Positions 1 through 64,000 of a stretch of DNA of 64,000 nucleotides are shown one piece after another. Numbering within the stretch: the first letter of the stretch is position 1; each line of letters starts with the position of its first letter. This DNA is from Deinococcales bacterium (GTDB lineage Bacteria; Deinococcota; Deinococci; Deinococcales; JAAFIG01): NCBI GenBank assembly GCA_013298595.1, contig JAAFIG010000010.1:1-64000 (forward strand). The letters are read 5' to 3'. Below the pieces are notes generated by a model. That model saw only the letters and a program-made list of their open reading frames with translations, was not told the DNA's origin and searched no databases. The position numbers and the translations under genes are program-made.

Positions 1-87
1 GCGTTCTGGTTGTTTTTCTTGTTTGAAGCGTTGTTCCAGTTCTTGGCTACTTTCAGCCCAGTTGATTGGTTTTATTGTTCGGGTCAT
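1..87 (-). CDS. N-terminal fragment of a probable IS630-type transposase or HTH protein, running off the window edge
   Basis: Reading minus from an ATG at 87, the first 29 codons give MTRTIKPINWAESSQELEQR followed by a basic stretch ending KQPER, after which the window ends. The opening resembles the start of helix-turn-helix proteins of the IS630/ISXO-like transposase group, in which a short N-terminal segment precedes a winged-helix domain. No clear Shine-Dalgarno site precedes the ATG. The visible part is too short to test for a DDE domain or terminal inverted repeats, so the family is a guess; that the frame is coding is somewhat better supported. Confidence 0.4.
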   Translation of the reverse strand, partial: MTRTIKPINWAESSQELEQRFKQEKQPER

Positions 88-177
88 GTGTTTATTATGA
101 CTCACTTTCAAACCGCTTTGGTATAAAACGTGTTCTCAAGTCTCGAGGCTAATAAAAGTCTGAGTCTATTTATTTTT

Positions 178-591
178 TTAACGAAGATTTGGGAACGGGT
201 TATTTTGAGAAGACTGATGCCAAACTGAATTCTCTGCTCTGAGAAGTTCAGCATCATATTGTCGTTTAAGTTCTTCAATATCTTGTTGCTCGAGTTGACG
301 ACCATTAAACTGCATTGAAACCCCACAATATAAGTACAAATACAAAGCTGTTAATGATTCCAATTTGTGAGATTTGGATGTAACAACAAAGATATTCTGC
401 TCTTTGTCACTTTGAAATATGTCAACGCATGGATCGTCGCTCTCGCGGTCTTTCATATACAATTCTGTCCAAACTCGACTATAGGCAATATAAGAATCAC
501 CTTCTGTATCCATATTCCGTTCCGAGCCGTATAAAAGATCTAAAAAGACTCGAAAATCAGGACGCTCCCGATCAACTATCACTTGATACAT
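178..591 (-). CDS. Hypothetical protein, 137 aa
   Basis: Complete frame of 137 residues starting at an ATG. The protein is soluble-looking, without a signal peptide or membrane segment, and acidic-polar in composition. A short hydrophobic leucine/tyrosine segment lies near residue 80 and a glutamine/glutamate-rich helix (QLEQQDIEELKRQYD) near residue 100. No family is recognised. It lies downstream of fusA in the same direction but is separated from it by a strong terminator, so it probably has its own transcript. One CTCGAG lies inside the frame (as Leu-Glu), in keeping with long residence in this genome. Confidence 0.55.
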   Translation of the reverse strand: MYQVIVDRERPDFRVFLDLLYGSERNMDTEGDSYIAYSRVWTELYMKDRESDDPCVDIFQSDKEQNIFVVTSKSHKLESLTALYLYLYCGVSMQFNGRQLEQQDIEELKRQYDAELLRAENSVWHQSSQNNPFPNLR

Positions 592-617
592 AATGGCTAT
601 CCTACTGGAAATAACAA

Positions 618-644
618 AACCGCCCTCGAGTCTCGAGGGCGGTT
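618..644 (-). terminator. Rho-independent terminator of the str operon (fusA)
   Basis: A perfect inverted repeat of 13 bp arms around one central base begins 13 bases beyond the fusA stop. Read on the minus strand the stem is followed by a T-rich run (TTTTGTTATT). Each arm ends in CTCGAG at the apex, so two copies of the over-represented hexamer form the top of the stem. Confidence 0.85.
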
Positions 645-656
645 GATGTGGCGTGA

Positions 657-2756
657 TTACTTGTTCTTAATCAGTGTTTCCATGATGCTGCGTGGAACTT
701 CGCTGTAATGATCGAAGAACATGCTGTAACTGGCACGTCCTTGGGTCATGGAGCGCATATCGGTTGCATAACCGAACATTTCTGAAAGTGGTACGTGGGC
801 TTTGACCAAGCGAGCATTACCGCGTTCGTCCATACCTTGGATTTGTCCACGACGACCGTTTAAATCACCAATGATGCTACCCATGTATTCTTCTGGTACA
901 ACCACTTCGACGCGCATGATTGGCTCGAGGATGGCTGGAGCACCTTTTTGTACAGCTTCTTTCAGTGCCATGCTACCAGCGATTTTGAACGCCATTTCCG
1001 AGGAGTCCACGTCGTGGTAACTGCCGCCAGTCATGGTGACTTTCAGGTCTACAATTGGGAAACCAATCAGTGGACCGCTGGAGAGGCTTTCTTCCATACC
1101 TTTTTGGGCAGGTCCTACGAATTCACGTGGCACTTCACCACCAACAACAGCATTCTCGAATTGGAAACCTGCGCCACGCTCGAGTGGTTCGGCTGTAATT
1201 TTAACGTGTCCGAATTGACCACGACCACCGGATTGACGTACAAATTTACCTTCGCAGTCAACGCGTTTAGTGATGGTCTCGCGGTATGCCACTTGTGGCG
1301 CACCAACGTTGGATTCAACTTTGAATTCGCGGCGTAAACGATCTACCAGAATCTCGAGGTGAAGTTCGCCCATTCCCGAGATGATGGTTTGACCACTTTC
1401 TTGGTTGGTTTCAACGCGGAAAGTTGGGTCTTCTTCAGCGAGTTTCGCCAGTCCTGCACCCATGCGGTCTTGGTCAGCTTTGGTTTTTGGTTCGACCGAC
1501 AAGCTAATCACTGGGTCTGGAATTTCGATACGCTCGAGCATGACAACATTATCGTTGTCACCGATGATGGTGTCGCCAGTTGAAGCATCTTTAACACCGA
1601 CAACTGCGCCGATATCGCCTGCACGAAGCTCAGCAATTTCTTCACGGTGATTGGCGTGCATTTTTAACAAACGCCCAACGCGTTCTTTTTTGCCTTTGCT
1701 CGAGTTGTAAACGTAACTGCCGCTAACCAATGTGCCCGAGTAAACACGCACGAAGGTTAAACGACCAACGTAAGGGTCGGTCATGATCTTGAATGCCAAA
1801 CCTGCCAAAGGACCCTTTGGATCGGATGGGAAATCAATTTCGGTACCTTCTTCGTCTGTACCTTTGATTGCTGGTACATCAAGTGGGCTTGGCAAGTAAT
1901 CAATCACAGCGTCAAGCATCAATTGAACACCTTTGTTTTTGAGGGCGCTACCACAAAGCACGGGGAACAAAATCATGCTGATTGTACCAACACGCAAAGC
2001 ATGTTTTAATTCAACTTCGCTGACATCTTGTCCCTCGAGGTACTTCATCATCACGTCTTCGTCAGCATCGGCAGCAACTTCAACCAATTCGGCACGGGCT
2101 GCTTTGGCACGCTCGAGCCAATCGGCTGGGATATCGGTTTCTTCGATATCTGTACCAAGGTCGTTGTGGAAGAAATGGGCGCGCATACGCACCAAATCGA
2201 TGATACCAACGAATTTATCTTCGGCACCCATTGGGATTTGAATTGGGGCTGGTTTTGCACCAAGGCGTTCTTTGATGTCGTTAACGACTAAGTTGAAATC
2301 GGCACCTGTTTTATCCATTTTGTTGCTAAATGCAATGCGTGGCACACGGTAACGATCTGCTTGTCGCCAGACGGTTTCGGATTGTGGTTCTACACCTTGG
2401 CTCGAGTCGAACACAGCCACAGCACCGTCGAGTACACGCATACTGCGTTCCACTTCGATGGTGAAGTCCACGTGACCTGGTGTGTCAATAATGTTGACAA
2501 CAAATGGAATACCGTATTGGGCATGTGTCCATTCGGCAGTGGTAGCAGCGGCAGTAATCGTGATACCACGTTCGCGTTCTTGTTCCATCCAGTCCATGGT
2601 GGCTGCACCTTCGTGCACCTCACCAATTTTGTGTACGCGACCAGTGTAATACAAGATGCGTTCTGTGGTGGTGGTCTTACCAGCATCAATATGTGCGGCG
2701 ATACCAATATTACGGGTGGTATTAAGATAATTTTTCAGATCAAGGTCTTTGAACAT
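657..2756 (-). CDS. fusA: Translation elongation factor G
   Basis: Ribosomal translocase GTPase of 699 aa, the standard EF-G length. The N-terminal G domain shows the P-loop [13 protein letters not shown] (about residues 20-32), the switch II motif DTPGHVDF and NKMDKTGAD. Domains II-V follow, with the C-terminal [13 protein letters not shown] segment typical of canonical EF-G. It is the last gene of the rpsL-rpsG-fusA operon, as in most bacteria, and is followed by a hairpin terminator. A long structured leader with its own mini-ORF separates it from rpsG, so its expression may be set separately from the ribosomal proteins. A second, divergent EF-G lies at 26143-28152; this copy is the housekeeping one on context. 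Confidence 0.98.
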
Positions 2757-2811
2757 ACGAGTTGCTCCTAATGAGCTGCAAGCTATTACTAGCTGTTGAG
2801 AGAGGGGCTTT

Positions 2812-2907: not shown

Positions 2908-2926
2908 GGGACTCACCTCCTGCCTA

Positions 2927-3080
2927 CACTCGAGATTTCCCTCGAGCTTCTTGCTCACTCGAGCAAACCACTCGAGATTCTGCACCTATTTGGCTTAAAC
3001 AAATGTCAGCTTGGCTCACATCAAGAGACCGCCGTATCGCTACTTGAAGGGCGCTGGCGGTCTCGAGTGGTTTAAGCCAA
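2927..3080 (-). promoter_or_regulatory. rpsG-fusA intergenic region with competing hairpins and clustered CTCGAG
   Basis: Just after the rpsG stop the minus strand holds an 11 bp inverted repeat (TTGGCTTAAAC at 2990-3000 with GTTTAAGCCAA at 3070-3080). It encloses a 9 bp GAGACCGCC/GGCGGTCTC repeat (3025-3033 and 3056-3064). The segment CTCGAGTGGTTT (3062-3073) can pair instead with AAACCACTCGAG (2966-2977), so two alternative folds compete. Four CTCGAG copies lie within about 55 bases (2927-2980). There is no T-run, so this looks like a processing or attenuation element rather than a plain terminator. Confidence 0.45.
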
Positions 3081-3970: not shown

Positions 3971-4197
3971 TCGACTCCTTCTCGAGTTCGACTACGGGTT
4001 TCTACCGTCCCCCGCAGATGCTCTCTGTAATATCCTTTGTTAATTTCAAAGGTAATGGTTGATAAATCAACCCGAGCAAACCGACGAAGTGTACTCGAGA
4101 AACCCTAAAAGTGCAAGGGGCAAAACTATATCATCTACTCAATCTCTGTTGGGAACTAGGAGCCGATGTAGAACTTTGCATTAACTTATGTTAGCTT

Positions 4198-4737
4198 CTA
4201 TCTAGCAAAACATGGAAGCCCAATATGCGTTTCTTCGTACCTTTTACTGTTCCAAGTTAAAAAAATTTTTTTACTTTCTTTAACAACTTTTGAATCATAG
4301 CCAGCATAGTACAAAATTTCTAAAAGTGGACTGTACATCCGATCATAAAAACGCACAAGCGGAGAAGATAAATTCGCTAAGACAGTTCCATCAAATGGTT
4401 TAGTATTAAATTCGATTAAAAACTTATTGTGAGTAGATACTCTGAAACAAATAGACCTATCTTTAAAACCAATATCGGCAATTTGATTAAATTGTTCATA
4501 TTTTATATTTAAATTAAAATCAATTCTTGATAAGGCTTTTATAGGCAACAAAATAGCCTTGCCTATAAAAATTGTTTTTGCTTCTTCATTTACAGAATCA
4601 ATAACTAACTTACCTTCAGAGTATATTTGGTATTTTTCGTACTGAGGTGTATTTGTTTTCTGAGAATATGTATTATTACTCAAAAAACACGTAAAAGCCA
4701 CTATAAAACCACAAAAAAAGCCTTGAAATCTTTTCAT
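4198..4737 (-). CDS. Secreted hypothetical protein, 179 aa
   Basis: The N-terminus (MKRFQGFFCGFIVAFTCFLS) is a typical signal peptide. The mature part contains short beta-rich segments (GKLVIDSVNEEAKTIFIGKA, VSTHNKFLIEFNTKPF) that weakly recall copper-amine-oxidase-like stalk domains, but the match is too poor to name. A GGGG-type ribosome site (AGGGG) lies 7 bases before the ATG. The gene is AT-rich, uses AAA/TTT-type codons and contains no CTCGAG, unlike nearly every neighbour, which suggests recent acquisition together with the next gene. Confidence 0.6.
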   Translation of the reverse strand: MKRFQGFFCGFIVAFTCFLSNNTYSQKTNTPQYEKYQIYSEGKLVIDSVNEEAKTIFIGKAILLPIKALSRIDFNLNIKYEQFNQIADIGFKDRSICFRVSTHNKFLIEFNTKPFDGTVLANLSSPLVRFYDRMYSPLLEILYYAGYDSKVVKESKKIFLTWNSKRYEETHIGLPCFAR

Positions 4738-4795
4738 AAAGTACCCCTAAGTAAACAAGTATTCTTTAATCAACAATCACTGTTTTAAAAGTTTT

Positions 4796-5875
4796 CTACT
4801 GTCTCAGGGAAATAGTTATTTTTTCTCCAAATCCAGGAAATGGGAATTCAGGCACTGTTCCCACAATTCCAGCACCACTAGGTAAAGGTGCTGGAAATTT
4901 ACAATCTTCACCAACTTGATTCTGAACCATTCTTTTGTATTGGCTTGAAGAGGTTCCAAGAACATACGAGGAGATAATGGCTTTCAATTCAGACTGTGAA
5001 GCAAAGTTATTGACATCTTGGGCAATTGATGTGGTGAACTTTAAAATTTGGCTGGCACCGTTTTTCTTCCAAGAACTTGCAGGAATACTAATTAAATTTT
5101 TTGCCGCTACATAAAAATTTATCCTGTTATCAGGCTCAACATAAAATGTGAGACCCAATCCTGCTGGATAATCAAACGCTGAAACTCGATATTGTGGTCC
5201 TTGAAGGTTACTACCATTTGTAATCAGATATACCTTACCATTAAACCTAATGCCTTGTGTCCAATCATTAGCACTTGGATTATACTGTAAGTAAGCATCT
5301 ACATCTGCACCAGCGGAAGTTCTACCGCCCAAGATAAAATATGCTGTCTCTTTATTCGGATCTGCGATTTCAACAAAATTTTCGTAACTGTAATTAATCC
5401 AAGTATCTGTATAAGGTATCTCAAGCCGTTTGGTTGGTAGACGTAGCCCCATATTGGCGTACGAATATCCTGTTTTTGCTGAAATTCGTCTGTATGCTCC
5501 AGTTGTACTTGTACACGAAAAGGGCGTTAGCGCTTGTGTTGAAAGAGTATTTTGATCAGTGTCTGGTAAATTAGACGTAAATAATCTACCAAACTGATCT
5601 CGAAATGTATTTGCACTAATTTGCTGACCAATGCTTAGACTATTTTGTAGGCTAACCTTATTTGTTAAAATTCTATTGTCCTCTGTTACATAAAAAACAT
5701 TATCACGGTGTTCTTCTGGAATTAATTTCATGAAATTTGCTAAAGTTCTTCGATCATCACCTACTAAGTCTGTATCAATTGAAATTACAGTTTCTTGTTC
5801 TATATTTGGACTAGAACCACATCCCCAAATTAGCAGCGCTAATAGTCCTACTAAAACGTAAACATGTATCTTCAT
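4796..5875 (-). CDS. Hypothetical lipoprotein, 359 aa
   Basis: Signal peptide with a lipobox-like end (LLIWGCGSS), giving a predicted lipidated Cys near residue 19. The mature chain is Ser/Thr/Asn-rich. A middle section (YRRISAKTGYSYANMGLRLP, then AYFILGGRTSAGADVDAYLQ) reads like a secreted beta-sandwich, and a C-terminal tail follows that is rich in Gly/Pro and Phe. No family is recognised. Like its downstream neighbour it lacks CTCGAG and is AT-rich. A promoter with TTGCAT, 17 bases and TATTGT ends only 6 bases before the ATG, so the message is probably leaderless. Confidence 0.6.
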   Translation of the reverse strand: MKIHVYVLVGLLALLIWGCGSSPNIEQETVISIDTDLVGDDRRTLANFMKLIPEEHRDNVFYVTEDNRILTNKVSLQNSLSIGQQISANTFRDQFGRLFTSNLPDTDQNTLSTQALTPFSCTSTTGAYRRISAKTGYSYANMGLRLPTKRLEIPYTDTWINYSYENFVEIADPNKETAYFILGGRTSAGADVDAYLQYNPSANDWTQGIRFNGKVYLITNGSNLQGPQYRVSAFDYPAGLGLTFYVEPDNRINFYVAAKNLISIPASSWKKNGASQILKFTTSIAQDVNNFASQSELKAIISSYVLGTSSSQYKRMVQNQVGEDCKFPAPLPSGAGIVGTVPEFPFPGFGEKITISLRQ

Positions 5876-5881
5876 GTAATC

Positions 5882-5910
5882 ACAATAGAGGATTACTTCA
5901 AATCATGCAA
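5882..5910 (-). promoter_or_regulatory. Probable leaderless promoter of the lipoprotein gene
   Basis: On the minus strand TTGCAT (5910-5905), a 17-base spacer and TATTGT (5887-5882) stand 6 bases before the ATG at 5875. Transcription would begin at or next to the start codon. Confidence 0.5.
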
Positions 5911-5981
5911 CCTACTATTTCGATTCTATTCAGCAGCGTCGTGACTCAGTGTACAATTAGGCAAGCATTGAGAGGAAAATC

Positions 5982-6977
5982 ATGTATAACGCATCCCCGA
6001 CTCGTTACGACAACATTCGCTATAACCGCGTAGGCAAAAGCGGTTTACAATTACCCGCCATTTCGCTGGGGTTATGGCATAACTTTGGAGGTGTAGATAC
6101 CCTCGAGAATGCCCGTATTATGTTACGCGGTGCTTTTGACCTTGGCATCACCCATTTTGATTTAGCCAATAATTACGGACCGCCTCCAGGTTCTGCTGAA
6201 AGTAACTTTGGTGAAATCTTCAAACAAGATTTTTTACCGTACCGTGATGAACTGATTATCTCGAGTAAAGCAGGGTATTTGATGTGGGCAGGTCCGTATG
6301 GAGAATGGGGTAGCCGTAAGTACTTGGTTGCCAGTTGCGACCAAAGCCTGAAACGCATGGGCTTAGCATATGTGGATATTTTTTACTCACACCGCCCAGA
6401 CCCTAAAACCCCACTCGAGGAAACCATGCAAGCCCTTGATTACATTGTTCGTAGCGGACGAGCTTTATATGTGGGCATCTCAAATTACTCAGCTGAGCAA
6501 ACTCAAGAAGCCGCAAAAATACTGCGTGAACTTGGCACACCTTGTTTGATTCATCAACCCAATTACAATATGTTGGATCGTTGGATTGAAAATGGTTTAA
6601 CCACTGTGCTACGTGAAGAAGGTATTGGTTCGATTGTTTTCTCACCATTAGCGCAAGGTTTACTTTCGGATAAATACCTTCAAGGCATCCCTGATGGTTC
6701 TCGAGCCAGTAAAGCTCATGGATTTTTACGTCCCGAACACATTAAACCCGAGCAGATCGCCAAAGTCCAAGCTTTAAACCAATTGGCTCAAGCTCGAGGG
6801 CAAACACTGGCGCAAATGGCTTTAGCATGGGTTCTGCGTTTACCCGAGGTAACTTCGGCTTTAATTGGAGCCAGTAAACTAAAACAAATAGAAGATGCTG
6901 TACAGGCTTTAGATAACTTGCAGTTTAGTCAAACTGAACTCGAGCAAATCGAAGCAGTTCTGCACAAGACAGAGTAG
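5982..6977 (+). CDS. Aldo/keto reductase of the L-glyceraldehyde 3-phosphate reductase (YghZ/MgrA) type
   Basis: 331 aa with the AKR TIM-barrel signature. The catalytic set is visible: D in FDLANNYGPPPGSAE (about residue 60), Tyr in the same segment, Lys in IISSKAGYLMW (about residue 94) and His in YSHRPDPKTPLEE. NADPH-binding features (FSPLAQGLLSDKYL, IGASKLKQIEDAV) lie near the C-terminus. The FDLANNYGPPPGSAE motif is typical of the YghZ/Gpr branch, which reduces L-glyceraldehyde 3-phosphate and methylglyoxal-like aldehydes. An AGAGG ribosome site lies 7 bases before the ATG. It stands alone, convergent with efp. Confidence 0.9.
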   Translation: MYNASPTRYDNIRYNRVGKSGLQLPAISLGLWHNFGGVDTLENARIMLRGAFDLGITHFDLANNYGPPPGSAESNFGEIFKQDFLPYRDELIISSKAGYLMWAGPYGEWGSRKYLVASCDQSLKRMGLAYVDIFYSHRPDPKTPLEETMQALDYIVRSGRALYVGISNYSAEQTQEAAKILRELGTPCLIHQPNYNMLDRWIENGLTTVLREEGIGSIVFSPLAQGLLSDKYLQGIPDGSRASKAHGFLRPEHIKPEQIAKVQALNQLAQARGQTLAQMALAWVLRLPEVTSALIGASKLKQIEDAVQALDNLQFSQTELEQIEAVLHKTE

Positions 6978-16193: not shown

Positions 16194-16259
16194 TTATGCC
16201 AAACGGCTCCTGAGATGAAATTGATGACTCGAGATAACCCAGTAGCAAAATGAACCATG

Positions 16260-16265
16260 TACACT
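16260..16265 (+). promoter_or_regulatory. -10 element of rsmE, leaderless type
   Basis: TACACT 7 bases before the GTG start of rsmE. Divergent from the M23 gene promoter, 66 bases away. Confidence 0.5.
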
Positions 16266-16272
16266 AAGAACC

Positions 16273-16962
16273 GTGCGACCTCACCGAGCCTATCATGCCA
16301 ATCTCGAGCCACAAATAAGTATTAGTGGTATCGAAGCAGCCCATTTACGAGTGCTACGCGCTAAAATAGGCGATAGCATCACCGTTTTTAATGGCGCAGG
16401 ACTCGAGGCAGTTGGCACAATTCTCGAGGCAACAGAGCACAGTTTTACTTTGCAACTTGGTGCAGCCCAAAACACAAACCGAGAACCACCACAACCTATT
16501 ACATTAGCAATAGCCTTACTCAAAGCCGATAAACTTGCCGATGTTGTCCGAGCCAGCAGCGAACTCGGAGTCTCGAGCATCCAACTACTTATTACTCAAC
16601 ATGCCGAAGCCAAAGACATTGGTACACAAAAACTCGAGCGATTACGCCGCGTTGCCACCGAAGCCGCTAAACAATGCCAACGCAATACCATCCCCAGCAT
16701 CCTCGAGCCAATTGCACTAACCGCTTTAACAGGCGCAGGCATTGTGGCACATCCACACTCGAGCCGTTTACCTCGAGAAGCGATTCAATGGGATGCACCA
16801 ATCACCATTGTCAGCGGACCCGAAGGCGGATTTTCAAACCAAGAAATAACCTTACTCGAGCACAAAGGTTTTACTCGAGTTACGCTAGGGCAACGCATCC
16901 TCAGGGCAGAAACCGCAGCGCTGGCATTACTATCAAGCATCACCGCTGCCGAAGGGATTTAA
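16273..16962 (+). CDS. rsmE: 16S rRNA (uracil-1498-N3)-methyltransferase
   Basis: 229 aa, GTG start. The N-terminal PUA-like domain (HLRVLRAKIGDSITVFNGAG) precedes a SPOUT methyltransferase domain with the trefoil-knot motifs ISGPEGGFS-like (VSGPEGGFSNQE, about residues 180-191) and VTLGQRILRAETAAL, both diagnostic of RsmE. It uses S-adenosylmethionine to modify U1498 near the decoding centre. Eleven CTCGAG copies lie in the gene, an extreme density. The next gene starts 3 bases after its stop. Confidence 0.95.
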   Translation: MRPHRAYHANLEPQISISGIEAAHLRVLRAKIGDSITVFNGAGLEAVGTILEATEHSFTLQLGAAQNTNREPPQPITLAIALLKADKLADVVRASSELGVSSIQLLITQHAEAKDIGTQKLERLRRVATEAAKQCQRNTIPSILEPIALTALTGAGIVAHPHSSRLPREAIQWDAPITIVSGPEGGFSNQEITLLEHKGFTRVTLGQRILRAETAALALLSSITAAEGI

Positions 16963-16964
16963 CA

Positions 16965-17525
16965 ATGCCAATCTCGAATATCATTGCTTTCGACGATTGC
17001 CCCTTTACTCGAGACCACAAAGGCAATGTCAATGTGATTGGCATTGTCTGCGCTCAAACCAGACTCGAGGGAGTCTTACGCACCCATGTTCGCAAAGATG
17101 GCAAAAATGCCACCACACAACTCGAGAAACTGATCTGGACAAGTAAATTTGCACCCAGTTTGCAACTGATTATGCTCCAAGGTATTGCCCTCGCAGGTTT
17201 TAACGTTGTGGATACCAAAACTCTTTCCGAAAAACTCGAGCTACCAGTCCTGATTATTGCGCGGCGCGAACCAAAACTCGAGAAAATCAAAAGCACCCTC
17301 CTCAACCGCATACCAGGTGGCAAACGCAAATGGCAAATTATTCAAAGCCTAGGCGAAATGGAAGCTTGCGCCGAAGTCTACGTGCAACGCGTAGGCATAG
17401 ACCTCGAGACCAGCGCCGAAGTGATACGCCGTACAACACTGCATGGACGAATACCCGAAGCCTTACGCCTCGCGCACTTGATCGCAGGAGGTATTACAAC
17501 AGGGGAATCTCGAGGACGAACCTGA
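16965..17525 (+). CDS. DUF99/UPF0215-family protein (endonuclease dU family)
   Basis: 186 aa from the ATG just after rsmE; the frame extends upstream within rsmE but that part has the wrong composition. The DUF99 pattern is recognisable: IIAFDDCPFTRD, NVIGIVCAQTRLEGV, IMLQGIALAGFNVVD, then LPVLIIARREPKLEKI and a C-terminal EVIRRTTLHGRIPEALRLAHLIAGGI. The family is related to endonuclease V and includes archaeal EndodU that nicks at deoxyuridine; it is also found in Deinococcus-Thermus genomes. A repair role is inferred. Probably co-transcribed with rsmE. Confidence 0.75.
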   Translation: MPISNIIAFDDCPFTRDHKGNVNVIGIVCAQTRLEGVLRTHVRKDGKNATTQLEKLIWTSKFAPSLQLIMLQGIALAGFNVVDTKTLSEKLELPVLIIARREPKLEKIKSTLLNRIPGGKRKWQIIQSLGEMEACAEVYVQRVGIDLETSAEVIRRTTLHGRIPEALRLAHLIAGGITTGESRGRT

Positions 17526-17550
17526 GGGAAATCTCGAGTACAATACAAGT

Positions 17551-17841
17551 ATGACCACCCTTGAAATTGCCAACCCAGATTCGCAATTAACAGCGCTACT
17601 TGAACGCATAGCGCATGGTGAAGAAATTGTTTTAACACGCAATGGTTTTGAACTGGCTCGAGTCAGTCCAATTGCACAACACACCAAACCAAAGCGAATT
17701 GGTTTTCTTGAAGGAAAAATTCAAATCCATGATGATTTTGATAACACCCCAAATGTAACTGATTCCTTATCTGATGGTGAACTCGATGAGATCATTGATA
17801 CTGTTTTAGCAGAAAAACGAAAAAAGAAAACCAAACACTAA
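17551..17841 (+). CDS. Phd/YefM-type antitoxin, without a visible partner toxin
   Basis: 96 aa. The N-terminal Phd fold (IANPDSQLTALLERIAHGEEIVLTRNGFELARVSP) is clear, followed by a charged C-terminal toxin-binding tail ending in lysines. Partner toxins of this family (VapC or Doc/YoeB type) normally lie directly downstream. Here a convergent DNA methyltransferase begins 9 bases later, so the antitoxin is orphaned, possibly because the neighbouring island replaced the toxin. Confidence 0.8.
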   Translation: MTTLEIANPDSQLTALLERIAHGEEIVLTRNGFELARVSPIAQHTKPKRIGFLEGKIQIHDDFDNTPNVTDSLSDGELDEIIDTVLAEKRKKKTKH

Positions 17842-17850
17842 ACAGTTGAT

Positions 17851-19017
17851 TCAGCGACGCACTTTTGGAGTCATTAAGAAGATAAGCTCAACAGAATCTT
17901 GTCGTGGAAGGCGATTACTTTCATTTGAATTTTTTCCACCAAGGGTACTAAAACTCCCAAGTACTTTTTCTTTTACAGAAACTCTAAACCATTTCTTAGC
18001 TAACTTATGAACAAGATCTCCAGAAAGTCCATTACTACATTTATTTTTTGGAAATGTAAAAATCAATGTTGCCCCTGTTCCTGCTAATCCTGCCAACAAA
18101 TTCTCAAGCGCAACTTTGGATTTTGAATGTAAACTAAAATCGGATTTAGGTCTGTATTTTGCATCAGGGTATCGTCCTTCTCCTGTTACCTCTCCACATC
18201 TACCTTGCGAGATAGTCTCTAAAACATGATAAAATCGACTGTACTGTTCAGAAGAGTATGGTGGATCAACAAATACTAAATCTGTAGCATTTAATTGTTC
18301 AAAAACCGTAAAAGCATCAGCACAAAGCGCTTCACCTTGAACATTTGCACACTGTACAGCCAGTTCACCAAGTGCCTTCTTCACGGATTCAATAAAGTCT
18401 CGATTCCAAGCCTGTACAACGTATTTACCTCCAGTTTCTGTCGGCTTGAAAGGCTGTGCGGTATGTCCAGGCGAAGCCACACAACGACTCGCAGCAATTA
18501 ATAAAGCTGCTAAAGCAATATTGCGGTCTGGTTCGTTCTCTGGTAAATACTTTCGCAAATAATCACAGGTAAGTGCTTGGAGTGGGCTAAAGTAAAAACC
18601 TCCATACGCAGCCCAAACAGCACCTATACGAGCAATCTTTGTACATAAAAGACGTGCTTTTGCAACTTGATAGACTAGAGTATGTCCTTCTGAAACTAAA
18701 CTTGCTTCCACAGCTTCGTTATATAAGGGGTGTTGCTTGAGCCTTTTTAGCACAGGTTCAAGCCAATCAGTCTCAAAAATAAGAGAATCGAAAACTGTTA
18801 CACGTTCAATTACGGAAGCTGCAAAGACTCGAGAATACTCCTGCAAATCCGTAGCAAGAACTGGTTTATTCAATTCTTGAGACGCAAAATGAGCTACTGA
18901 ACCCGACCCTGAGAATAAATCAACGAAACGATTATATTGTGGTTTATTACCCACTTTTCGGATTAGTTCACCCAATCCGTTTTGTAACATAAACCGTTTT
19001 GAACCCATATATTTCAT
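17851..19017 (-). CDS. DNA adenine-N6 methyltransferase (D12 class) of the HerA-NurA operon
   Basis: 388 aa. The N-terminal MKYMGSKRFML is the usual opening of D12-class enzymes, followed by the SAM-binding motif VDLFSGSGSVAHF (about residues 32-44) and the catalytic VDPPYSSEQYSRFYHVLE (DPPY about residues 250-253) that marks N6-adenine or N4-cytosine methylation. A target-recognition region lies between them. It is the third gene of a tight operon: 5 bases after the NurA-like gene. Only one CTCGAG occurs in the gene and the sequence is AT-rich, unlike flanking genes. It could protect host DNA from the associated HerA-NurA machine; the recognition site is unknown. Confidence 0.85.
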   Translation of the reverse strand: MKYMGSKRFMLQNGLGELIRKVGNKPQYNRFVDLFSGSGSVAHFASQELNKPVLATDLQEYSRVFAASVIERVTVFDSLIFETDWLEPVLKRLKQHPLYNEAVEASLVSEGHTLVYQVAKARLLCTKIARIGAVWAAYGGFYFSPLQALTCDYLRKYLPENEPDRNIALAALLIAASRCVASPGHTAQPFKPTETGGKYVVQAWNRDFIESVKKALGELAVQCANVQGEALCADAFTVFEQLNATDLVFVDPPYSSEQYSRFYHVLETISQGRCGEVTGEGRYPDAKYRPKSDFSLHSKSKVALENLLAGLAGTGATLIFTFPKNKCSNGLSGDLVHKLAKKWFRVSVKEKVLGSFSTLGGKNSNESNRLPRQDSVELIFLMTPKVRR

Positions 19018-19022
19018 AAATT

Positions 19023-20324
19023 TTAATCCCGCAGTAATCTTTGTGCGAAGCGCTCGAGAATACCTTTTGATGGATTTTCTGAAATTGAGGCTAAAGAATT
19101 AGCTAACTTCAATGGCACAAGAGCATTTTCATGAGCTGAACTTAACATTTCAGATAACACAGACATTGATTCTTGAAAACCCATTAAGTCACTCATAGTT
19201 GGGTTCAATGGAAAATTCCCTGTAGGTATGTTAAAAGCCACAACATGATCTTTCCCAAGACGGACAACAACCTTACTACCATATTGTGAACGATAGTTAT
19301 CAATGTCGTCGTTATAGACGAAACCTTTGATACGTTCCTGAAGATATTTCATATTTGGCAGAAAAAAGTCACCAGACTCTTTTAGTGATTCTTGAATCAT
19401 CGGTATATGCGAAACCAACTCACCTGTTTTCTCGACTCCAACAGCATGAACTGTGATTTCTTGAGTACGCAAATGCTCAAAAAAAGCGCGAACTGCAAAA
19501 ACTAAACGAGAAAGTTGAGAACGTAAAACCAAAGGTCCATCCTTGACAAAAAGTGTCTCAGCAAGCGCTTTGGGGTTATTACTAAGTTTTATTATCATTC
19601 CAAGAAGTAACAAATTTTCAGATACACTAGCAAGATCAGAAATTACGTTCTCACGTGCCCAGTCTTCTGGCATTGAATGAACTAACTGCAAGTAATCTGA
19701 CAAAGTATGTGCTTGTCCGCAACTTGGACATGCAAACATAATTTTGTTGCGCGGCAAAACCATGGTCTTAGCGCATTTGATACAACCCATGTTCTCTACC
19801 ATTTCATACTTTGGCAACCATAATCTCGAGATCAGATAGTTTAGAGGTTCATAGAGTCCTTCTCGGGTAAAAAATTCATGAATAATGTTACGAATGGTTT
19901 GCACGACAGTATATCCAGGAATAGCAATACCAGACAAAGGCAATGCCACAGCAATAGTACCGTGATTACCCTCTAATTGACGTGTTAAATCTCTCGGATC
20001 AATAATTGGATTGATTTGCATTGCCCGAACTTCTTGTAAATTTAGTGTAACAACAGTAGCTGACATAAATGAAAGACTCTTAGAGCGTTTTAAGCTGTTT
20101 GGAATGGTTAAATAACTACCATCAATAGCTACAATTGTTTCAATTTTTCCTGTTTTAGTAAGATCAAGTTGACCAGATAATTCACCAATAAGTTCAACAC
20201 TTGAGTCGTCTGTATTTTCAAAAGCTGCAATTAAACTTTGAATGTGCGGCTCGTTAATGAGCTTTATATGCCCAATTTTAGAAGCAAATTCCGCAGGAAG
20301 CACAGTGCCAGCAGGACTTGCCAT
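19023..20324 (-). CDS. NurA-domain nuclease with zinc ribbon
   Basis: 433 aa. NurA nucleases work with HerA ATPases to resect DNA ends. The catalytic-type motif VAIDGSY (Asp about residue 68) opens the NurA fold; KDGPLVLRSQ (about residue 265) gives the second acidic site; GVEKTGELVSHI and the C-terminal VPLKLANSLASIS correspond to the later conserved blocks, with Asn where many NurAs have His. A CxxC-CxxC zinc ribbon (CIKCAK and CPSCGQ, about residues 180-201) is inserted, which is not usual for archaeal NurA. Its ATG overlaps the herA stop (TAATG), so the two proteins are made together. Confidence 0.7.
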   Translation of the reverse strand: MASPAGTVLPAEFASKIGHIKLINEPHIQSLIAAFENTDDSSVELIGELSGQLDLTKTGKIETIVAIDGSYLTIPNSLKRSKSLSFMSATVVTLNLQEVRAMQINPIIDPRDLTRQLEGNHGTIAVALPLSGIAIPGYTVVQTIRNIIHEFFTREGLYEPLNYLISRLWLPKYEMVENMGCIKCAKTMVLPRNKIMFACPSCGQAHTLSDYLQLVHSMPEDWARENVISDLASVSENLLLLGMIIKLSNNPKALAETLFVKDGPLVLRSQLSRLVFAVRAFFEHLRTQEITVHAVGVEKTGELVSHIPMIQESLKESGDFFLPNMKYLQERIKGFVYNDDIDNYRSQYGSKVVVRLGKDHVVAFNIPTGNFPLNPTMSDLMGFQESMSVLSEMLSSAHENALVPLKLANSLASISENPSKGILERFAQRLLRD

Positions 20325-22390
20325 TAGACATCAACCTTTTTATCTGTGGTATCAGTATGTTCAAATAAACGAATTTGAACAGGTAAAGCGTACCGATGTG
20401 ACAAGGTAATCATTCGCACGTAGCCTTTGGTTTTTGACCTTTGAATATCAAGACCAATATCTTGAAATTCATAGCGTCGTTCAATTTCTCGAATTTCACG
20501 ATCATCATTTAAGTGAGCAATAAAAAAGTTCTCTGTATTCTTCAATAAATCAGGGCTAAGTGTTGTCATAGACTGCGTTGCATAAACCATTCCAACTCGG
20601 AATTTTGCTCCTTCTTTAGCCAATTTATTATAAATACTTGTTAAGTCTTTATCATCTGCACGAAATAAGTTATGGGCTTCCTCAAAGTAGAAAAGTGCAG
20701 ACTGCTTTTCAAAAACTTCTGTTTCAAGCTCGGCAAATCCTTTCATTTGTTCATTTAGGACTGCTCGAGCAATCATCTCACTGTAGAAAGTTGAAACAAT
20801 TTGATCGGCTTGTGACAAGTCAATAAGGACAGTTTTTCCATCCTTTACGTCCTTAACGATTTTTTCTGCAATACTGGAACCTTTGGGGTCATGGTAACCC
20901 TTAAAAGGTGTTAATTTTTTTGCTCCAGAAATTCCAGTGTCTCCAATCATTTTCAACAGTGCTATATGTATAGGTTCAAAATAAGGTTTACCGCTTTCTT
21001 TACTAGCAGGAAACAATTTTGCTTTTGAGGTGTTATTAAAAATGCCCCATAACTGTTCATAAACTCGCAAAGCAATATCTAAGTCCTGCGTATCAGACAT
21101 TTTTCCTAGCTCTCCATCTACTTTTGCCCTATCTCTACGAACAATGTCCTTGAGAGCATCTAAAGAAGCTAACTCCTCTCGAATTTCAGAAGTGATATGT
21201 AACTGAAGTTGCAATCTTTCTGGTGGTTCAAATCCCGCTTGTCTTAAAAGTCCTTTATACATTGAAATAGCACGTTGATACCGTGTCTTTTCACTACCAA
21301 AAGGGTCTTCTGCAAATCGTTTGTTTAGCTCGAGTTCATCAATCGGTTCCCATCCAAAAAACGGAGCCATATAGTCTGGTCGGGTTGCATGTACTGTGTT
21401 AAACAAAGAGGAAATCATTGAATGCCCAAGACTCAATTGTTCATAGAAATTAACGCGGAGTACATTTGGTTTTCTAATTCCAGCTAATTTTTCTGCTTCT
21501 GGTTCTCGAGGATTTAAACTATAACGTGTACATTTGCTTCTATGGCGCAAGTAAATACTCCCACCAGTCTGTTTATCTGGATAAGTGTACTCTCCCGATA
21601 AATCAAAAACCACTTGCCCCACTTCTTGTTTTGAATTCAACATCATTTCCAGAATAACTTTGATAGTATTTGATTTACCCATTCTGGTTTTGCCAAATAA
21701 TGCGGTGCGATTAGCAATAAAATCTTTGGGGGCAATTTGAATATCTACTGATTTTTTTGGGGCAATCAATTCAGTTTCAGTAAAACGCAAACGACCAATG
21801 TTCATTGTATCGTCACCATCAACAAATGAATTAATCAGCAGAGCAAGATGTTCGGGCTGTGGCACATAAACTTCGTAAAAATGAGGCGATAAGTACGAGT
21901 CAATATCGTTACCAAATTTCACTTCTTTACCGTCATCAAAATACGTTCCAAGAATTGAAATTTGTAATGCACCCCATTGTAGTTCAGCGCTTGTATAAGG
22001 ATCAGTAACTGCTTGCACTTTATGAATCGCAAAAATCGTGCGTTGAATATCTTGCGAGACGGGGGTAGCAACAGCTTGAGTTACTCGTCCCAAAATTAAG
22101 ATTGGAGGACGCACACTTGCACCATCAAGTTTTCTTGCTGCTTGGCTGGCTTTTATAATGATGAAAGAGTTTTTTGGCACTCCACCACATTTGAGTTTCC
22201 ATCCATCACAAGTCACAATTGTTGCTTTATCATAGTTTAGATCAAGCACGTAACCAAGAAGATGATTCCCTTTATCATTATAAGAATTAACAATATCTAC
22301 GACTAAACCTTCAAAAACAGGACGAGATCGTTCATCAGCAGAATCTGCAATCCCGTCAGCAACCTTATCCATAATGTTTTTTGAATTCAT
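20324..22390 (-). CDS. HerA-like hexameric ATPase (DUF87), first gene of a HerA-NurA-methyltransferase operon
   Basis: 688 aa. The start is the ATG at 22390, 6 bases after a GGAGG site; a longer in-frame start at 22438 lacks one. An N-terminal HAS-barrel-like beta domain (GLVVDIVNSY, GYVLDLNYDKATIV) is followed by the ATPase with Walker A FGKTRMGKSNT (about residues 232-242), VVFDLSGEYTYP, the hydrolysis motif FYFEEAHNLF and a sensor/arginine region (IREIERRYEF). HerA proteins form hexameric DNA translocases. The gene uses AT-rich codons and holds few CTCGAG copies. With the NurA-like and methyltransferase genes it forms a self-contained module that could act in phage defence or restriction. 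Confidence 0.85.
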   Translation of the reverse strand: MNSKNIMDKVADGIADSADERSRPVFEGLVVDIVNSYNDKGNHLLGYVLDLNYDKATIVTCDGWKLKCGGVPKNSFIIIKASQAARKLDGASVRPPILILGRVTQAVATPVSQDIQRTIFAIHKVQAVTDPYTSAELQWGALQISILGTYFDDGKEVKFGNDIDSYLSPHFYEVYVPQPEHLALLINSFVDGDDTMNIGRLRFTETELIAPKKSVDIQIAPKDFIANRTALFGKTRMGKSNTIKVILEMMLNSKQEVGQVVFDLSGEYTYPDKQTGGSIYLRHRSKCTRYSLNPREPEAEKLAGIRKPNVLRVNFYEQLSLGHSMISSLFNTVHATRPDYMAPFFGWEPIDELELNKRFAEDPFGSEKTRYQRAISMYKGLLRQAGFEPPERLQLQLHITSEIREELASLDALKDIVRRDRAKVDGELGKMSDTQDLDIALRVYEQLWGIFNNTSKAKLFPASKESGKPYFEPIHIALLKMIGDTGISGAKKLTPFKGYHDPKGSSIAEKIVKDVKDGKTVLIDLSQADQIVSTFYSEMIARAVLNEQMKGFAELETEVFEKQSALFYFEEAHNLFRADDKDLTSIYNKLAKEGAKFRVGMVYATQSMTTLSPDLLKNTENFFIAHLNDDREIREIERRYEFQDIGLDIQRSKTKGYVRMITLSHRYALPVQIRLFEHTDTTDKKVDV

Positions 22391-22437
22391 AATAGCCTCC
22401 GTGGTGCATACCTGAGCTGTCAAACAAGTATATCTCA

Positions 22438-22663
22438 CGAATACGTTTGCAGTACACTCCCATGGCTTCTTTTGTCAGTATTTTGCTTGCCAAGCAGGTT
22501 CAGCCTAACACAGCCCAAAATAACTTCTGGATGCTCACCTAGACGTATCAATTCGTTAATGACATCATCAAATTCGGTTGGAGTGACTGATCCAGATACA
22601 AAATCCATAAGCGAGTGTGCCTTCTGAAATAGTTGTTAATTTCTCGAGGGTTGGTTTAGTCAT
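22438..22663 (-). pseudogene. Probable frameshifted small gene upstream of herA
   Basis: An ATG at 22663 with an AGGA site opens MTKPTLEKLTTISEGTLAYG and then meets a stop. A second minus-strand frame starting at 22609 continues as MDFVSGSVTPTEFDDVINEL followed by a hydrophobic-acidic stretch, ending near 22438. The two halves join smoothly at the overlap if one base were lost or gained, suggesting a broken gene of about 75 codons or an assembly error. No family is recognised. Confidence 0.4.
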
Positions 22664-59579: not shown

Positions 59580-62102
59580 ATGAAACGTCTGATTGGTTTG
59601 GTAGTGCTGGCTTCGTTAGCAGCTTGTGGTACGAGCACCAATGTACCTGGTGGAACTGGTGCTTTAGAGAAATGGTCTGACCCTAAAACATGGGGTGGGA
59701 CTGTCCCTGCGGCTGGTGCGAGTTTAACCATTCCCGAAGGCAAAGAAGTTTTACTGGATAGCTCGGTGGAACTGAGTTCGCTCGAGATTAAAGGTACTTT
59801 GCGTTTTGATAATCAAGACCTCGAGTTGCGTGCCCAACGGATTACTGTAGTGGGTGGGAAATTACAAATAGGGGCTGAACTGGCACCATTCCAAAAACGT
59901 GCCATCATCACCTTAGTGGGTCAAGACACAGGCGCAGATGCTGATGGCATTGGCGAAAAAGTTCTTGGTGTCATGATGGGCGGCAGTCTCGAGCTATATG
60001 GTGCTTCACGTGGCACAGCTTGGACTCGTCTCTCGAGTAATGCCGTTGTTGGTGCAAGCACACTATCGCTTGCAGGTAATACAGGTTGGCGTGTTGGTGA
60101 TAAAATTGCCATTGCCAGCAGCGATTACGATCCTAAACAAGACGAAGCTGTGGTGATTACTTCTGTGACAAGCAATACCATTGGTGTTGCCCCAGCCTTA
60201 AAATACGCACATTTTGGTCAAACCCAAGATTTTGCTGGTAAGACCCTTGAATCTCGAGCCGAAGTTGCTTTACTCAACCGCAATATTGTGATTCGTGGTG
60301 ATGACACCTCGAGTACCACTGGTTTCGGTGGGCATGTCATGATTATGGATTCAAGCATTGCTAAACTCGATCATGTCGAAATGACAAACATGGGGCAAAA
60401 AGGCAAATTAAAACGTTACCCAATACATTTTCATATGCAAGGCACAGGCAGTAATGGGTCTTATATCAAAAATAGTGCTATTGCTAATAACTTTAATCGT
60501 TGTGTAACAATTCATGGTTCTGGTGGTATTACCCTAGAAAATAATGCAGCTTTTAATACCTTTGGGCATTGCTATTTTCTCGAAGATGGCAGCGAAACAG
60601 GTAATGTTTTAAAGAATAATTTGGGATTTGGTACGCAACGCCCCGAAACAGCCGATAAATTATTACCGACTGACAGAGACCCAGCCACATTCTGGATTAC
60701 CAATGCCAGCAACACTTTTACAGGCAATGTTGCCGCAGGTTCAGCCACTTTTGGTTTTTGGATTGCCCTACCCGAAAAAGCCACTGGACCAAGCGCCAAA
60801 GACTCGAGATTTAGTGCATTGCGTCCAAACCGCATGGCACTTGGTGAATTTAAAAATAATTTAGCGCACAGTAACGAAAACACAGGCTTAAATGTGGACG
60901 GTGGTCCAAACATTACAACCCTCGAGTCTGGAACCACCTATTATGCTCCTCGAGTTGACCCAAACGATGATAAAAGTGCCATTGTGCCAACGGTTTTTGA
61001 AAATTTCCAAGCCTACCGTAATCGCAACCGAGGCGTTTGGTTGCGTGGCGAGAAGCATACATTATTAGGTGCCATCATTGCCGATGGGGCAATTGGTGCG
61101 ACTTTTGCCAGCAACGAAACCTTTGTCGAAAACAGTGTCTTTGTTGGTGAAACCGCAATTAAAGGTACCCCTAGCGATTACGAGAAGAACGGTCGGGTTG
61201 GTCTGGATGGACGGACACTGCCTTTTCCGTGGGAAACAGCTTTCCCCATTCGTGGTTACGAATTTTACGATGGCAAAGTCGGGGCTAAAAACGTGACTTT
61301 TGTCAACTACCAACCCAATGCCCAACGGGCTGCCAGTGGTGTTTCTTATTTGCGTTTCACTGCTTTTCATATAGACCCACGCAATGGTTCTGAGGGACTG
61401 AATTTTGTCAATGCTAACAAAGTTTGGTTAGCCTTTGAAAAACCCGAACCCACTGCTCCAAACGATGATGGCATGGACGGTTACCGCAGCGCTGTTTTCC
61501 TCGATAAAGATGGTAGCGTTGCAGGTACAGCCAACCGCAGTGTTGTTGTGGATAACCCGTTTTTAGTCAATGCCAATTGCACTGCTAAAGCCGAATGGGG
61601 TGCTCAAATCTGCAATAACCCCTATGCGCGTTTTCAATTTGAAAATGTTGCCAATTACACAGCCGATACTGCCGAAATCAGTCCAGTTGTCATCACACGG
61701 CTCGAGGATAGCAACCCAGAACATAAGATGTGGGGAACACCACACGATAAGAATAATCGCCACTTTGAAACTCGGTTAATATCCCAAAAAAGCTATACCA
61801 TCAACCCAGCAGGAGCATTACCTGCTCGAGTTCGTTTGCATTTCCGTAACCGCGAAGTAGGAGATTGGGTGCGTATCAGTTTGCCTTGGACAGGAGCAGC
61901 CCCCAGTATTTACCGCGATTGGTGGGTAGATAACCGCAATAAACTGGCGGCTGTACCTCTTGCCGATTTGGATGCCTCGAGTGGCGATAAGTACGCACTT
62001 GATGCTGGCAGAGTGCACCTGAAATTACAAATTAAAAGTGATCCAAATTATGTTAAAGATTGGGCTGTACTCGATATTTGCCAAATTGATTTGTGCAAAT
62101 AA
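59580..62102 (+). CDS. G8-domain and beta-helix lipoprotein, related to CEMIP/TMEM2, 840 aa
   Basis: Signal peptide with lipobox LASLAACG. A G8 domain follows at about residues 30-150 (WSDPKTWGGTVPAAGASLTI, LRFDNQDLELRAQRITVVGG), then a right-handed beta-helix. The diagnostic block RYPIHFHMQGTGSNGSYIKN (partial) at about 280-300, CVTIHGSGGITLENNAAFN and GHCYFLEDGSETGN (about 325-338) matches the animal hyaluronan-depolymerising proteins CEMIP and TMEM2 and the PKHD1 family. So it may bind or cut an extracellular polysaccharide. No known sugar-cutting residues could be confirmed by eye. Confidence 0.8.
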   Translation: MKRLIGLVVLASLAACGTSTNVPGGTGALEKWSDPKTWGGTVPAAGASLTIPEGKEVLLDSSVELSSLEIKGTLRFDNQDLELRAQRITVVGGKLQIGAELAPFQKRAIITLVGQDTGADADGIGEKVLGVMMGGSLELYGASRGTAWTRLSSNAVVGASTLSLAGNTGWRVGDKIAIASSDYDPKQDEAVVITSVTSNTIGVAPALKYAHFGQTQDFAGKTLESRAEVALLNRNIVIRGDDTSSTTGFGGHVMIMDSSIAKLDHVEMTNMGQKGKLKRYPIHFHMQGTGSNGSYIKNSAIANNFNRCVTIHGSGGITLENNAAFNTFGHCYFLEDGSETGNVLKNNLGFGTQRPETADKLLPTDRDPATFWITNASNTFTGNVAAGSATFGFWIALPEKATGPSAKDSRFSALRPNRMALGEFKNNLAHSNENTGLNVDGGPNITTLESGTTYYAPRVDPNDDKSAIVPTVFENFQAYRNRNRGVWLRGEKHTLLGAIIADGAIGATFASNETFVENSVFVGETAIKGTPSDYEKNGRVGLDGRTLPFPWETAFPIRGYEFYDGKVGAKNVTFVNYQPNAQRAASGVSYLRFTAFHIDPRNGSEGLNFVNANKVWLAFEKPEPTAPNDDGMDGYRSAVFLDKDGSVAGTANRSVVVDNPFLVNANCTAKAEWGAQICNNPYARFQFENVANYTADTAEISPVVITRLEDSNPEHKMWGTPHDKNNRHFETRLISQKSYTINPAGALPARVRLHFRNREVGDWVRISLPWTGAAPSIYRDWWVDNRNKLAAVPLADLDASSGDKYALDAGRVHLKLQIKSDPNYVKDWAVLDICQIDLCK

Positions 62103-62133: not shown

Positions 62134-62139
62134 AATGCC

Positions 62140-63327
62140 ATGACTCAGCCAGCTCAGGAACTGAATATTGTTGATATTCTCAAGTACGCTGTTGAACGCG
62201 ATGCCTCGGACATCATCATGACAGCGGGTTTACCACCTCAGTACAAAATTCATGGTGAATGGGGCAATGGCGAACATACCAACCCTTTAACTGGTCTCGA
62301 GACGCGTAAATTGATGTACTCAACTATGAATGAAAAGCAGCAACGGGTTTTTGAAGAAAAACGCGATTTCGATTTTTCGTTCTCTTCCCAAGGTATTGGT
62401 GGGCGTTTCCGTGTCAATATCTTTATGCAGCGCGGTACGGTGGGTGGTGTGATGCGGTTAATTCCGACCAAAACCCGTCCGCTTGAAGAAATTGGTTTAC
62501 CCAAAGATATCCTGATTCAAGTCTCGAGTTTGCCACGTGGTTTGGTATTAGTAACTGGTCCAACAGGTTCAGGTAAAAGTACCACTTTGGCTGCCATGAT
62601 CGACTGGATTAATACCAATAAGAAAAAACATATTGTGACCATCGAAGACCCTGTTGAATTTACTCATTCACATAAAAGCTGCATTATCAATCAGCGCGAA
62701 ATCGGACCAGATACCCAAGATTTCGAGATGGCGTTACGAGCTGTACTGCGTCAAGCGCCTGATGTGATTCTGGTCGGAGAAATGCGCGACTTTGAAACCA
62801 TTCGCAGCGCTGTCACCGCCGCTGAAACTGGGCACTTGGTGATGGGGACATTGCACACCAACAGCGCCCCAGAAGCCATTGACCGTATTGTGGACGTTTT
62901 CCCAGAAGAACAACAAGAACAAATTCGCGTACAACTTGCCAATAACCTGAGCGCAATTATTACGCAGCAAATGTTACCAAAAATCAGTGGTGATGGACGC
63001 GTAGTTGCTTATGAAATTATGATTGCCACGCCTGCTGTGCGCGCCTTAATCCGCGAAGGTAAATCGTATCAATTGGTCAGTGTGATCCAAACCAACGCTT
63101 CACTTGGCATGATTACCATGGATGCTTGCCTTGCCGACATGTACAAAAAGAAAATCATTACTTTTGAACTCGGCGAAGCTCGTTCGGTAGATCCTAAAGA
63201 ATTTACACGCTTAGCCCGCCTTGGCGAAGGTCTTCCAGGGCAACCAGGGCAAGCTCAACGCCCACAACCAGGGCAACCAGCCCAACCACAAACACCACAA
63301 CCCGCCACAGGTTTTGGCAGACGCTAA
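62140..63327 (+). CDS. pilT: Type IV pilus retraction ATPase PilT
   Basis: 395 aa. Walker A GPTGSGKSTT (about residues 138-147), Asp box IEDPVEFTH, the Walker B region VILVGEMRDFETI and GHLVMGTLHTNSA give the secretion ATPase; the N-terminal DASDIIMTAGLPP is PilT-typical. It powers pilus retraction (twitching and DNA uptake). The C-terminal tail of about 30 residues is a Gln/Pro repeat (GQPGQAQRPQPGQPAQPQTP), not part of the usual PilT. Confidence 0.95.
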   Translation: MTQPAQELNIVDILKYAVERDASDIIMTAGLPPQYKIHGEWGNGEHTNPLTGLETRKLMYSTMNEKQQRVFEEKRDFDFSFSSQGIGGRFRVNIFMQRGTVGGVMRLIPTKTRPLEEIGLPKDILIQVSSLPRGLVLVTGPTGSGKSTTLAAMIDWINTNKKKHIVTIEDPVEFTHSHKSCIINQREIGPDTQDFEMALRAVLRQAPDVILVGEMRDFETIRSAVTAAETGHLVMGTLHTNSAPEAIDRIVDVFPEEQQEQIRVQLANNLSAIITQQMLPKISGDGRVVAYEIMIATPAVRALIREGKSYQLVSVIQTNASLGMITMDACLADMYKKKIITFELGEARSVDPKEFTRLARLGEGLPGQPGQAQRPQPGQPAQPQTPQPATGFGRR

Positions 63328-63339
63328 ACTATAAAATGC

Positions 63340-63370
63340 AACGGCAGGGCTATACTGCTCTGCCGTTTCT
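63340..63370 (+). terminator. Terminator of pilT
   Basis: AACGGCAG/CTGCCGTT with a 12-base loop followed by TCTCATT. Confidence 0.75.
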
Positions 63371-63395
63371 CATTGAAAAACGATAAGTTAACATC

Positions 63396-64000
63396 ATGAT
63401 TCACGCGCCCGAAGCCCCTGTATTCAAGGCGCTGCTCCTGATCTCGAGTTTATTACTGATTGGCATTGGCATCATTGCCAGACACCTCGAGCCACGAATA
63501 GCAACTCGTTGGCATTGGGGTATTCGGATTGGCGCGGTCATTCTGATTACCTCGAGTTTAGTTGATCTTGGTTTTACAGCTTGGCGTGCCCTACTCGAGA
63601 TCAACCCGTACTTGTATGGTGCGTATTTAACCAACAGCCGTCATGGACAATGGGTGATGGTTCGGGTGGTGTCGGCTGTTGTGCTGTGGTGGTTATCGGT
63701 CAAACCTCGAGCTGAACTCAACCGCTTACCGAATGCTAATAAAATAGATATTGGTTTACATAGTCTTGCCAGCATTGCCTTGGGATTGAGTATTTCTATG
63801 ACCACACATAGTGGTGCCAGCAACCAAGTTTTACCAATTTTTGGCGATCTGATGCACTTATTTGCCATGTACTTATGGATCAGTGGTGTAGCACTCTTGG
63901 CAATTCATCGTTTTAGTCCAAAAGATGGCATTGAAAAAGCCAAACTGATCTCGAGTGTCGCTGCTTGGAGTGTTGCAGCATTGACACTGACTGGGGTTTA
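63396..64000 (+). CDS. CopD-family-like membrane protein (start only)
   Basis: The frame runs from the ATG at 63396 to the window edge, 201 codons and still open. The N-terminus is MIHAPEAPVFKALLLISSLL followed by several membrane segments. The segment FGDLMHLFAMYLWISGVALL (about residues 155-175) matches the CopD core, where His and Trp lie in the membrane. The family acts in copper import or in cytochrome-linked roles. Partial, so not fully named. Confidence 0.65.
   Translation, partial: MIHAPEAPVFKALLLISSLLLIGIGIIARHLEPRIATRWHWGIRIGAVILITSSLVDLGFTAWRALLEINPYLYGAYLTNSRHGQWVMVRVVSAVVLWWLSVKPRAELNRLPNANKIDIGLHSLASIALGLSISMTTHSGASNQVLPIFGDLMHLFAMYLWISGVALLAIHRFSPKDGIEKAKLISSVAAWSVAALTLTGV

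Follow-up and report, generated by a model that had tools for sequence, protein, structure and literature searches.

CTCGAG in Deinococcota: a dense, conserved palindrome, probably of the HIP class and kept by pressure on the DNA itself

The palindromic hexamer CTCGAG occurs 352 times in a 64,000-nt stretch of a Deinococcales genome (the window, meaning the whole stretch analysed; unstranded sites in 1..64000, the first at 142 and the last at 63950), where base composition predicts 12.3 copies. The word is exact, indifferent to reading frame and conserved between relatives; intermediates one change away are rare, and the dipeptide composition of encoded proteins is distorted. Very probably CTCGAG is a motif of the same class as the cyanobacterial HIP repeats and is under active maintenance. 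As to how it is kept, our leading reading, which we hold at a probability of roughly 0.45, is a continuing pressure at the DNA level that would act through a symmetric protein reader, a methylation-linked process being the likeliest form.

Abundance of CTCGAG and avoidance of other palindromes

The window is contig 2 of a 68-contig, 4.58-Mb assembly, and detailed statistics were drawn from 464-896 kb of this genome (G000). A whole-genome count, a check proposed in a first-pass annotation of the window, finds 27,159 copies (5.9/kb, or about one per 170 bases), while the letter-reversed control GAGCTC has only 15 genome-wide. In a 464-kb sample with a GC content of 45.1%, the window included, the ratio of observed to expected copies is 30 by base composition, 60 by a first-order Markov model and 14.5 by a second-order model. 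The maximal-order ratio for the window is only 1.23, an unfair null because CTCGAG itself contributes most of its own 5-mers. Counts given by the first-pass annotation for 1-4100 (20 sites) and 16200-17540 (19 sites) are exact, as its expectation of roughly 12 copies nearly is; its extrapolated total of 250-350 was right about over-representation, but the true number lies slightly above the upper bound. In the terms used for the HIP class, CTCGAG is a short palindrome well over expectation across the genome, GC-rich (67%) and bare rather than extended.

Nearly all palindromes other than CTCGAG are avoided in G000. The 464-kb sample contains no TTCGAA (134 expected), 3 copies of CTTAAG (134 expected), 9 of GGCC and 103 of CCGG (1,202 expected for each), and no CCGCGG (61 expected); CGGCCG, GGGCCC and AGGCCT are likewise missing from it. 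Avoidance this extreme points to many restriction systems, past or present.

A feature of the DNA that alters proteins

The density of CTCGAG is 5.86/kb overall and 5.78/kb outside open reading frames. Relative to synonymous shuffles that preserve each protein plus the codon usage of non-site codons, enrichment in the three codon phases is 43-fold, 16-fold and 27-fold. The bases around intergenic copies show no strong bias at any position, which makes the bare hexamer the unit. A search for an extended motif returned nothing beyond a slight shortage of G three bases upstream, to 0.61 of background at intergenic sites; eight bases upstream there is a second weak reduction, to 0.76. With enrichment in all phases, equal density outside reading frames and no flanking extension, the initial claims hold that the word appears in every frame and in intergenic DNA, and that it is a DNA-level feature rather than codon bias.

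CTCGAG is held firmly enough to alter protein composition. There are 1,998 Leu-Glu pairs where 847 would be expected, a ratio of 2.4 that is the highest among the 400 dipeptides, and 1,363 of these pairs are encoded as CTCGAG. Ser-Ser stands at 1.6 times expectation. Other dense genomes that were sampled give a Leu-Glu ratio of 2.4-2.5, and two Thermus-like genomes one of 0.9-1.1.

Site layout in the window

The densest stretch named in the first-pass annotation, 16228..17662, includes the 19 sites counted above and another at 17657. Seven perfect-stem terminator-like hairpins were found by a stem scan of the window, and just one has CTCGAG in both arms: the element CCGCCCTCGAG-ACT-CGAGGGCGG-TTTT at 620..648 on the minus strand, with sites at 625 and 632, one per arm. 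The early observation of sites inside terminator stems is borne out by this one case. The longest site-free gap, 2,008 bp at 4095..6101, spans open reading frames of 179 and 359 aa, neither of which has a Pfam match. Outside site-poor blocks, spacing is slightly more regular than Poisson (variance/mean 0.73-0.82). A short-range deficit was seen, but it is restricted to coding DNA, and we therefore claim no spacing rule for the motif.

Other features of the window include a match of about 20-30 bp, at 28335-28365, to a dispersed repeat with several further copies in G000 and many in the genus-mate G001. A 751-aa protein with a GH5 cellulase domain (55872-58127) and an 840-aa protein with a G8 domain and CEMIP-type beta-helix (59580-62102) are further observations for a Deinococcota genome.

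One region, 17658..22642, is poor in sites, with 6 against 29 expected (P 2e-7) and a GC content of 38% compared with 45% for the genome. It serves as an internal negative control and shows that CTCGAG density is not uniform over the window. Its three genes (17851-22438) encode a D12-class (Dam-like) DNA methyltransferase-like protein of 388 aa (17851..19017, minus strand; PF02086 matches, PADLOC MTase_II at 2e-22), a 433-aa protein and a HerA-like ATPase, and this low-GC trio looks like a candidate defence system. The region fits recently acquired defence-type DNA in which sites have not yet been filled in.

Conservation and maintenance of sites

In the main alignment, 61 kb against the genus-mate at 73% identity, exact conservation holds for 68% of 307 sites, compared with 23% of control hexamers of the same composition. 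Sites that are not shared have a counterpart one substitution away in 22% of cases; among controls the figure is 43%. The same pattern is seen in smaller alignments to three further genomes. Sites therefore do not drift freely between relatives; free drift is what the first-pass annotation had named as counting against its reading. One-off hexamers show no excess genome-wide, with 2,446 found against 3,443 expected by composition (both strands).

The exact word, rather than the dipeptide, is what is kept. Leu-Glu itself is conserved alike at sites and elsewhere (80% and 79%), but where the pair is conserved, 85% of pairs written CTCGAG keep the same codons, against 8% of pairs written otherwise. 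Set against synonymous alternatives, with a correction for how the same codons are used elsewhere, CTCGAG has log-odds of 2.4-3.8 when the alternative is a transition and 3.8-5.6 when it is another change. These comparisons cover all six positions, and all are protected with no single position standing out. The figures on maintenance presuppose near-equilibrium and do not distinguish selection from biased repair. Compensation between lost and gained sites was considered (neighbours within 60 bp, 0.46 compared with 0.37) and is not claimed.

Distribution across Deinococcota

Copy numbers are 26,619-28,178 in the genus-mate and in two family-mates, so that the uncultured Deinococcales family, with its four genomes, stands at about 6/kb throughout. 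An arginyl-tRNA synthetase scan places uncultured Deinococcales metagenome assemblies (JAAFJQ, JANYHH, JANXTZ and JANYFS) closest among named records, followed by Trueperaceae, Meiothermus and Thermus. Across 111 genomes of the phylum, with genome sizes rounded, the density peaks at 7.7/kb (G005); Meiothermus-like genera lie at about 1.4-3.4/kb, Thermus-like genomes at about 0.6-1.1/kb, and G007 at 0.3/kb. Among palindromic hexamers, CTCGAG shows the greatest over-representation in 7-45 kb samples of 19 relatives, except in two Thermus-like genomes, G007 and G010; in the 20-kb sample of G010, AT-rich words with two copies outrank it. The f3 genome G008 shows 8-fold enrichment, yet has few methyltransferases. 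There is no CTCGAG excess in 50 kb of the Deinococcus radiodurans MP1 megaplasmid (8 copies, 17 expected).

Methyltransferases and restriction enzymes

Methyltransferases were sought with profiles PF00145, PF01555 and PF07669 over 111 genomes, PF02086 in 28 and PF02384 in 20, in assemblies 91-96% complete; enzymes outside these five Pfam classes may be missed. Within that scope, no methyltransferase orthologue is common to all of the densest genomes (families f1 and f2), and no recognisable PaeR7I-type or A1-type enzyme occurs in them except a 25%-identical relative in G003. Enzymes of inferable type in f1 and f2 match avoided sites instead: L057 is HpaII-type (CCGG), by similarity to a gene adjoining an HpaII endonuclease, and L059 is BsuBI/PstI-type by linkage, so neither serves as the cognate enzyme. 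No cognate methyltransferase was identified among the rest, and L055, L056, L058 and the D12-class gene of the window have no assigned specificity; L055 and L058 were set aside as candidates because none could be assigned.

Meiothermus-like genomes of genus g12 are different in this respect. PaeR7I recognises CTCGAG, and some g12 genomes encode gamma-class methyltransferases that share 63-69% identity with paeR7IM from plasmid pRSB105, where that gene adjoins paeR7IR; the pair is annotated on other plasmids too. The XhoI endonuclease family (PF04555) is limited to G012-G014 plus a broken gene (L322) beside the M.PaeR7I-type copy of G108, so the M.PaeR7I-type genes of these g12 genomes are orphans. 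A second gamma family, A1 (about 550 aa), occurs in exactly 14 of the 18 g12 genomes, those lacking the PaeR7I-type gene. This mutual exclusion suggests that the two enzymes may share a role in g12, although the four PaeR7I-type carriers share a locus and the swap may be a single event. In family f5, the median ratio of CTCGAG to GAGCTC is 3.6 for carriers of either gene and 1.8 for other genomes (Mann-Whitney p 0.004, kinship ignored). A1 was rejected as a phylum-wide cause, being missing from f1, f2 and f3 genomes.

On the restriction side, PF04555 has 0 matches in G000-G008 (assembly 94% complete), and no XhoI/PaeR7I-family endonuclease was found in the window's family, in line with the first alternative in the early expectation that the host either lacks an XhoI-like enzyme or protects the site. 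In three f3 genomes (G012-G014, loci L319-L321) the XhoI-family endonuclease adjoins a beta-class methyltransferase; elsewhere its usual partner is a gamma-class enzyme. This beta-class enzyme, to which no specificity could be assigned, was set aside as a cause, its 57-63% identical relatives occurring in Thermus-like genomes without an excess. In genus g8, carriers of the endonuclease have 0.70, 0.97 and 0.87 sites/kb and non-carriers 1.78, 1.97 and 1.65 (sizes rounded). Restriction avoidance predicts just this shortfall in carriers, and a working CTCGAG restriction system seems not to have produced the enrichment as a by-product.

A link between CTCGAG abundance and methyltransferases, judged from gene content, is thus half supported. 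The tie to a conserved methyltransferase that the first-pass annotation drew from HIP1 is not supported in the densest genomes, where none of the five classes searched is common to all, and survives in the putative orphan CTCGAG-type enzymes of Meiothermus-like genomes.

Proposed explanation and alternatives

In the explanation we favour, continuing sequence-specific pressure on the DNA itself would keep CTCGAG at its very high density: mutations away from the exact hexamer would be removed, and copies would be favoured even at the cost of changes in protein sequence. We infer that the pressure is exerted via a protein reading the hexamer symmetrically, either a type II methyltransferase or a homodimeric binder. 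Its likeliest form is a methylation-linked process, in which methylated CTCGAG would serve repair, replication or the organisation of the chromosome, or would bias mismatch repair along the lines of Elhai's proposal for HIP1. For Meiothermus-like genomes a plausible reader is an orphan adenine methyltransferase of M.PaeR7I type or A1 type. More tentatively, the motif could be an independent, phylum-wide counterpart of HIP1, kept by a CTCGAG-reading protein or repair process rather than by a conserved methyltransferase, and reshaping the proteome.

Such a reader need not involve methylation. CTCGAG could be the binding site of an abundant homodimeric protein that organises chromosomes or takes part in recombination, an unlikely reading that nonetheless accommodates a palindromic, exact word spread evenly over coding and noncoding DNA, spacing somewhat more regular than Poisson (variance/mean again 0.73-0.82) and dense genomes with no common methyltransferase. 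Against it, no candidate protein was identified, the short-range deficit behind part of the regularity is found only in coding DNA, and one would not expect a palindrome of a Chi-like site.

If competent cells prefer DNA containing CTCGAG and copies spread by transformation and recombination, in the manner of the DUS and USS uptake sequences, then high copy number, effects on proteins and scarcity in foreign islands would be expected too. Thermus and Deinococcus take up DNA without sequence preference, and in the material sampled, which for Deinococcus is the 50 kb of MP1, these are the lineages without the excess. Known uptake sequences are about 9-12 bases long, non-palindromic and found around once per kb, whereas CTCGAG is a bare palindromic hexamer with no flanking extension at 6/kb, and uptake drive appears improbable.

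We give slightly less credence to a passive process in which biased mismatch repair or gene conversion creates CTCGAG, as in very-short-patch repair or the model for HIP1, the motif having no function. Known very-short-patch repair corrects one mismatch type, while six of six positions are protected here, and the densest families have no cognate enzyme that we found. In favour of the idea, transition log-odds (2.4-3.8) lie below those for most other changes, a difference that may stem from unequal repair or recent decay, and Elhai proposes an epiphenomenon of this kind for alternate HIPs (PMC4390886). Finally, codon-pair or amino-acid bias alone would account for part of the excess in high-GC relatives, which falls in the Leu-Glu frame as expected from codon usage, but as the cause in G000 it is refuted by the frame and synonymous-shuffle controls (16-43 in all frames, equal non-ORF density), by the near absence of GAGCTC and by conservation of CTCGAG as a unit, and its probability is negligible.

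Comparison with known systems

HIP1 (GCGATCGC) occurs at 300-2,700 per Mb in most genomes of a survey of 97 cyanobacteria, a matching methyltransferase was present in every HIP-bearing genome surveyed, and its function is still termed a mystery (Elhai 2015, PMC4390886). Like HIP1 and the alternate HIPs, CTCGAG is a short, GC-rich palindrome over-represented genome-wide while other palindromes are avoided; gain and loss among relatives are patchy, and candidate orphan methyltransferases occur in some lineages. The parallel first drawn with HIP1 stands in that a DNA-level palindrome, selected or actively restored, whose sites do not drift freely, is present in a Deinococcota genome. CTCGAG differs in being an unextended hexamer, in belonging to another phylum, in its density of about 5,900 per Mb, more than twice the highest listed for HIP1, and in having no common methyltransferase found in its densest genomes.

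Like the DUS and USS of Neisseriaceae and Pasteurellaceae, it is a short word in thousands of copies, genes included; those sequences are longer, asymmetric and less dense. XhoI/PaeR7I restriction-modification has the same recognition sequence, with M.PaeR7I-type orphans in Meiothermus-like relatives, but a search of the window's family turned up no system of this kind, and g8 carriers of the XhoI family are poorer in CTCGAG than non-carriers. M.DraR1 of Deinococcus radiodurans, reported to methylate CCGCGG at N4 (PMC10855626, PMC6712171), likewise concerns a palindrome in the same phylum; CCGCGG is a different word, and one that is missing from the G000 sample. A literature search that mostly lay outside subscription journals turned up no earlier description of a CTCGAG excess in Deinococcota, so priority is uncertain.

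The puzzle of HIP1 persists partly because its cases lie in one phylum, and CTCGAG provides a second, denser case elsewhere, in which pressure at the nucleotide level raises Leu-Glu to 2.4 times expectation in the densest genomes. Its gains and losses, and relatives that can be cultivated (Meiothermus with the motif, Thermus without it, XhoI-bearing genomes with less of it), make the function of HIP-class motifs testable.
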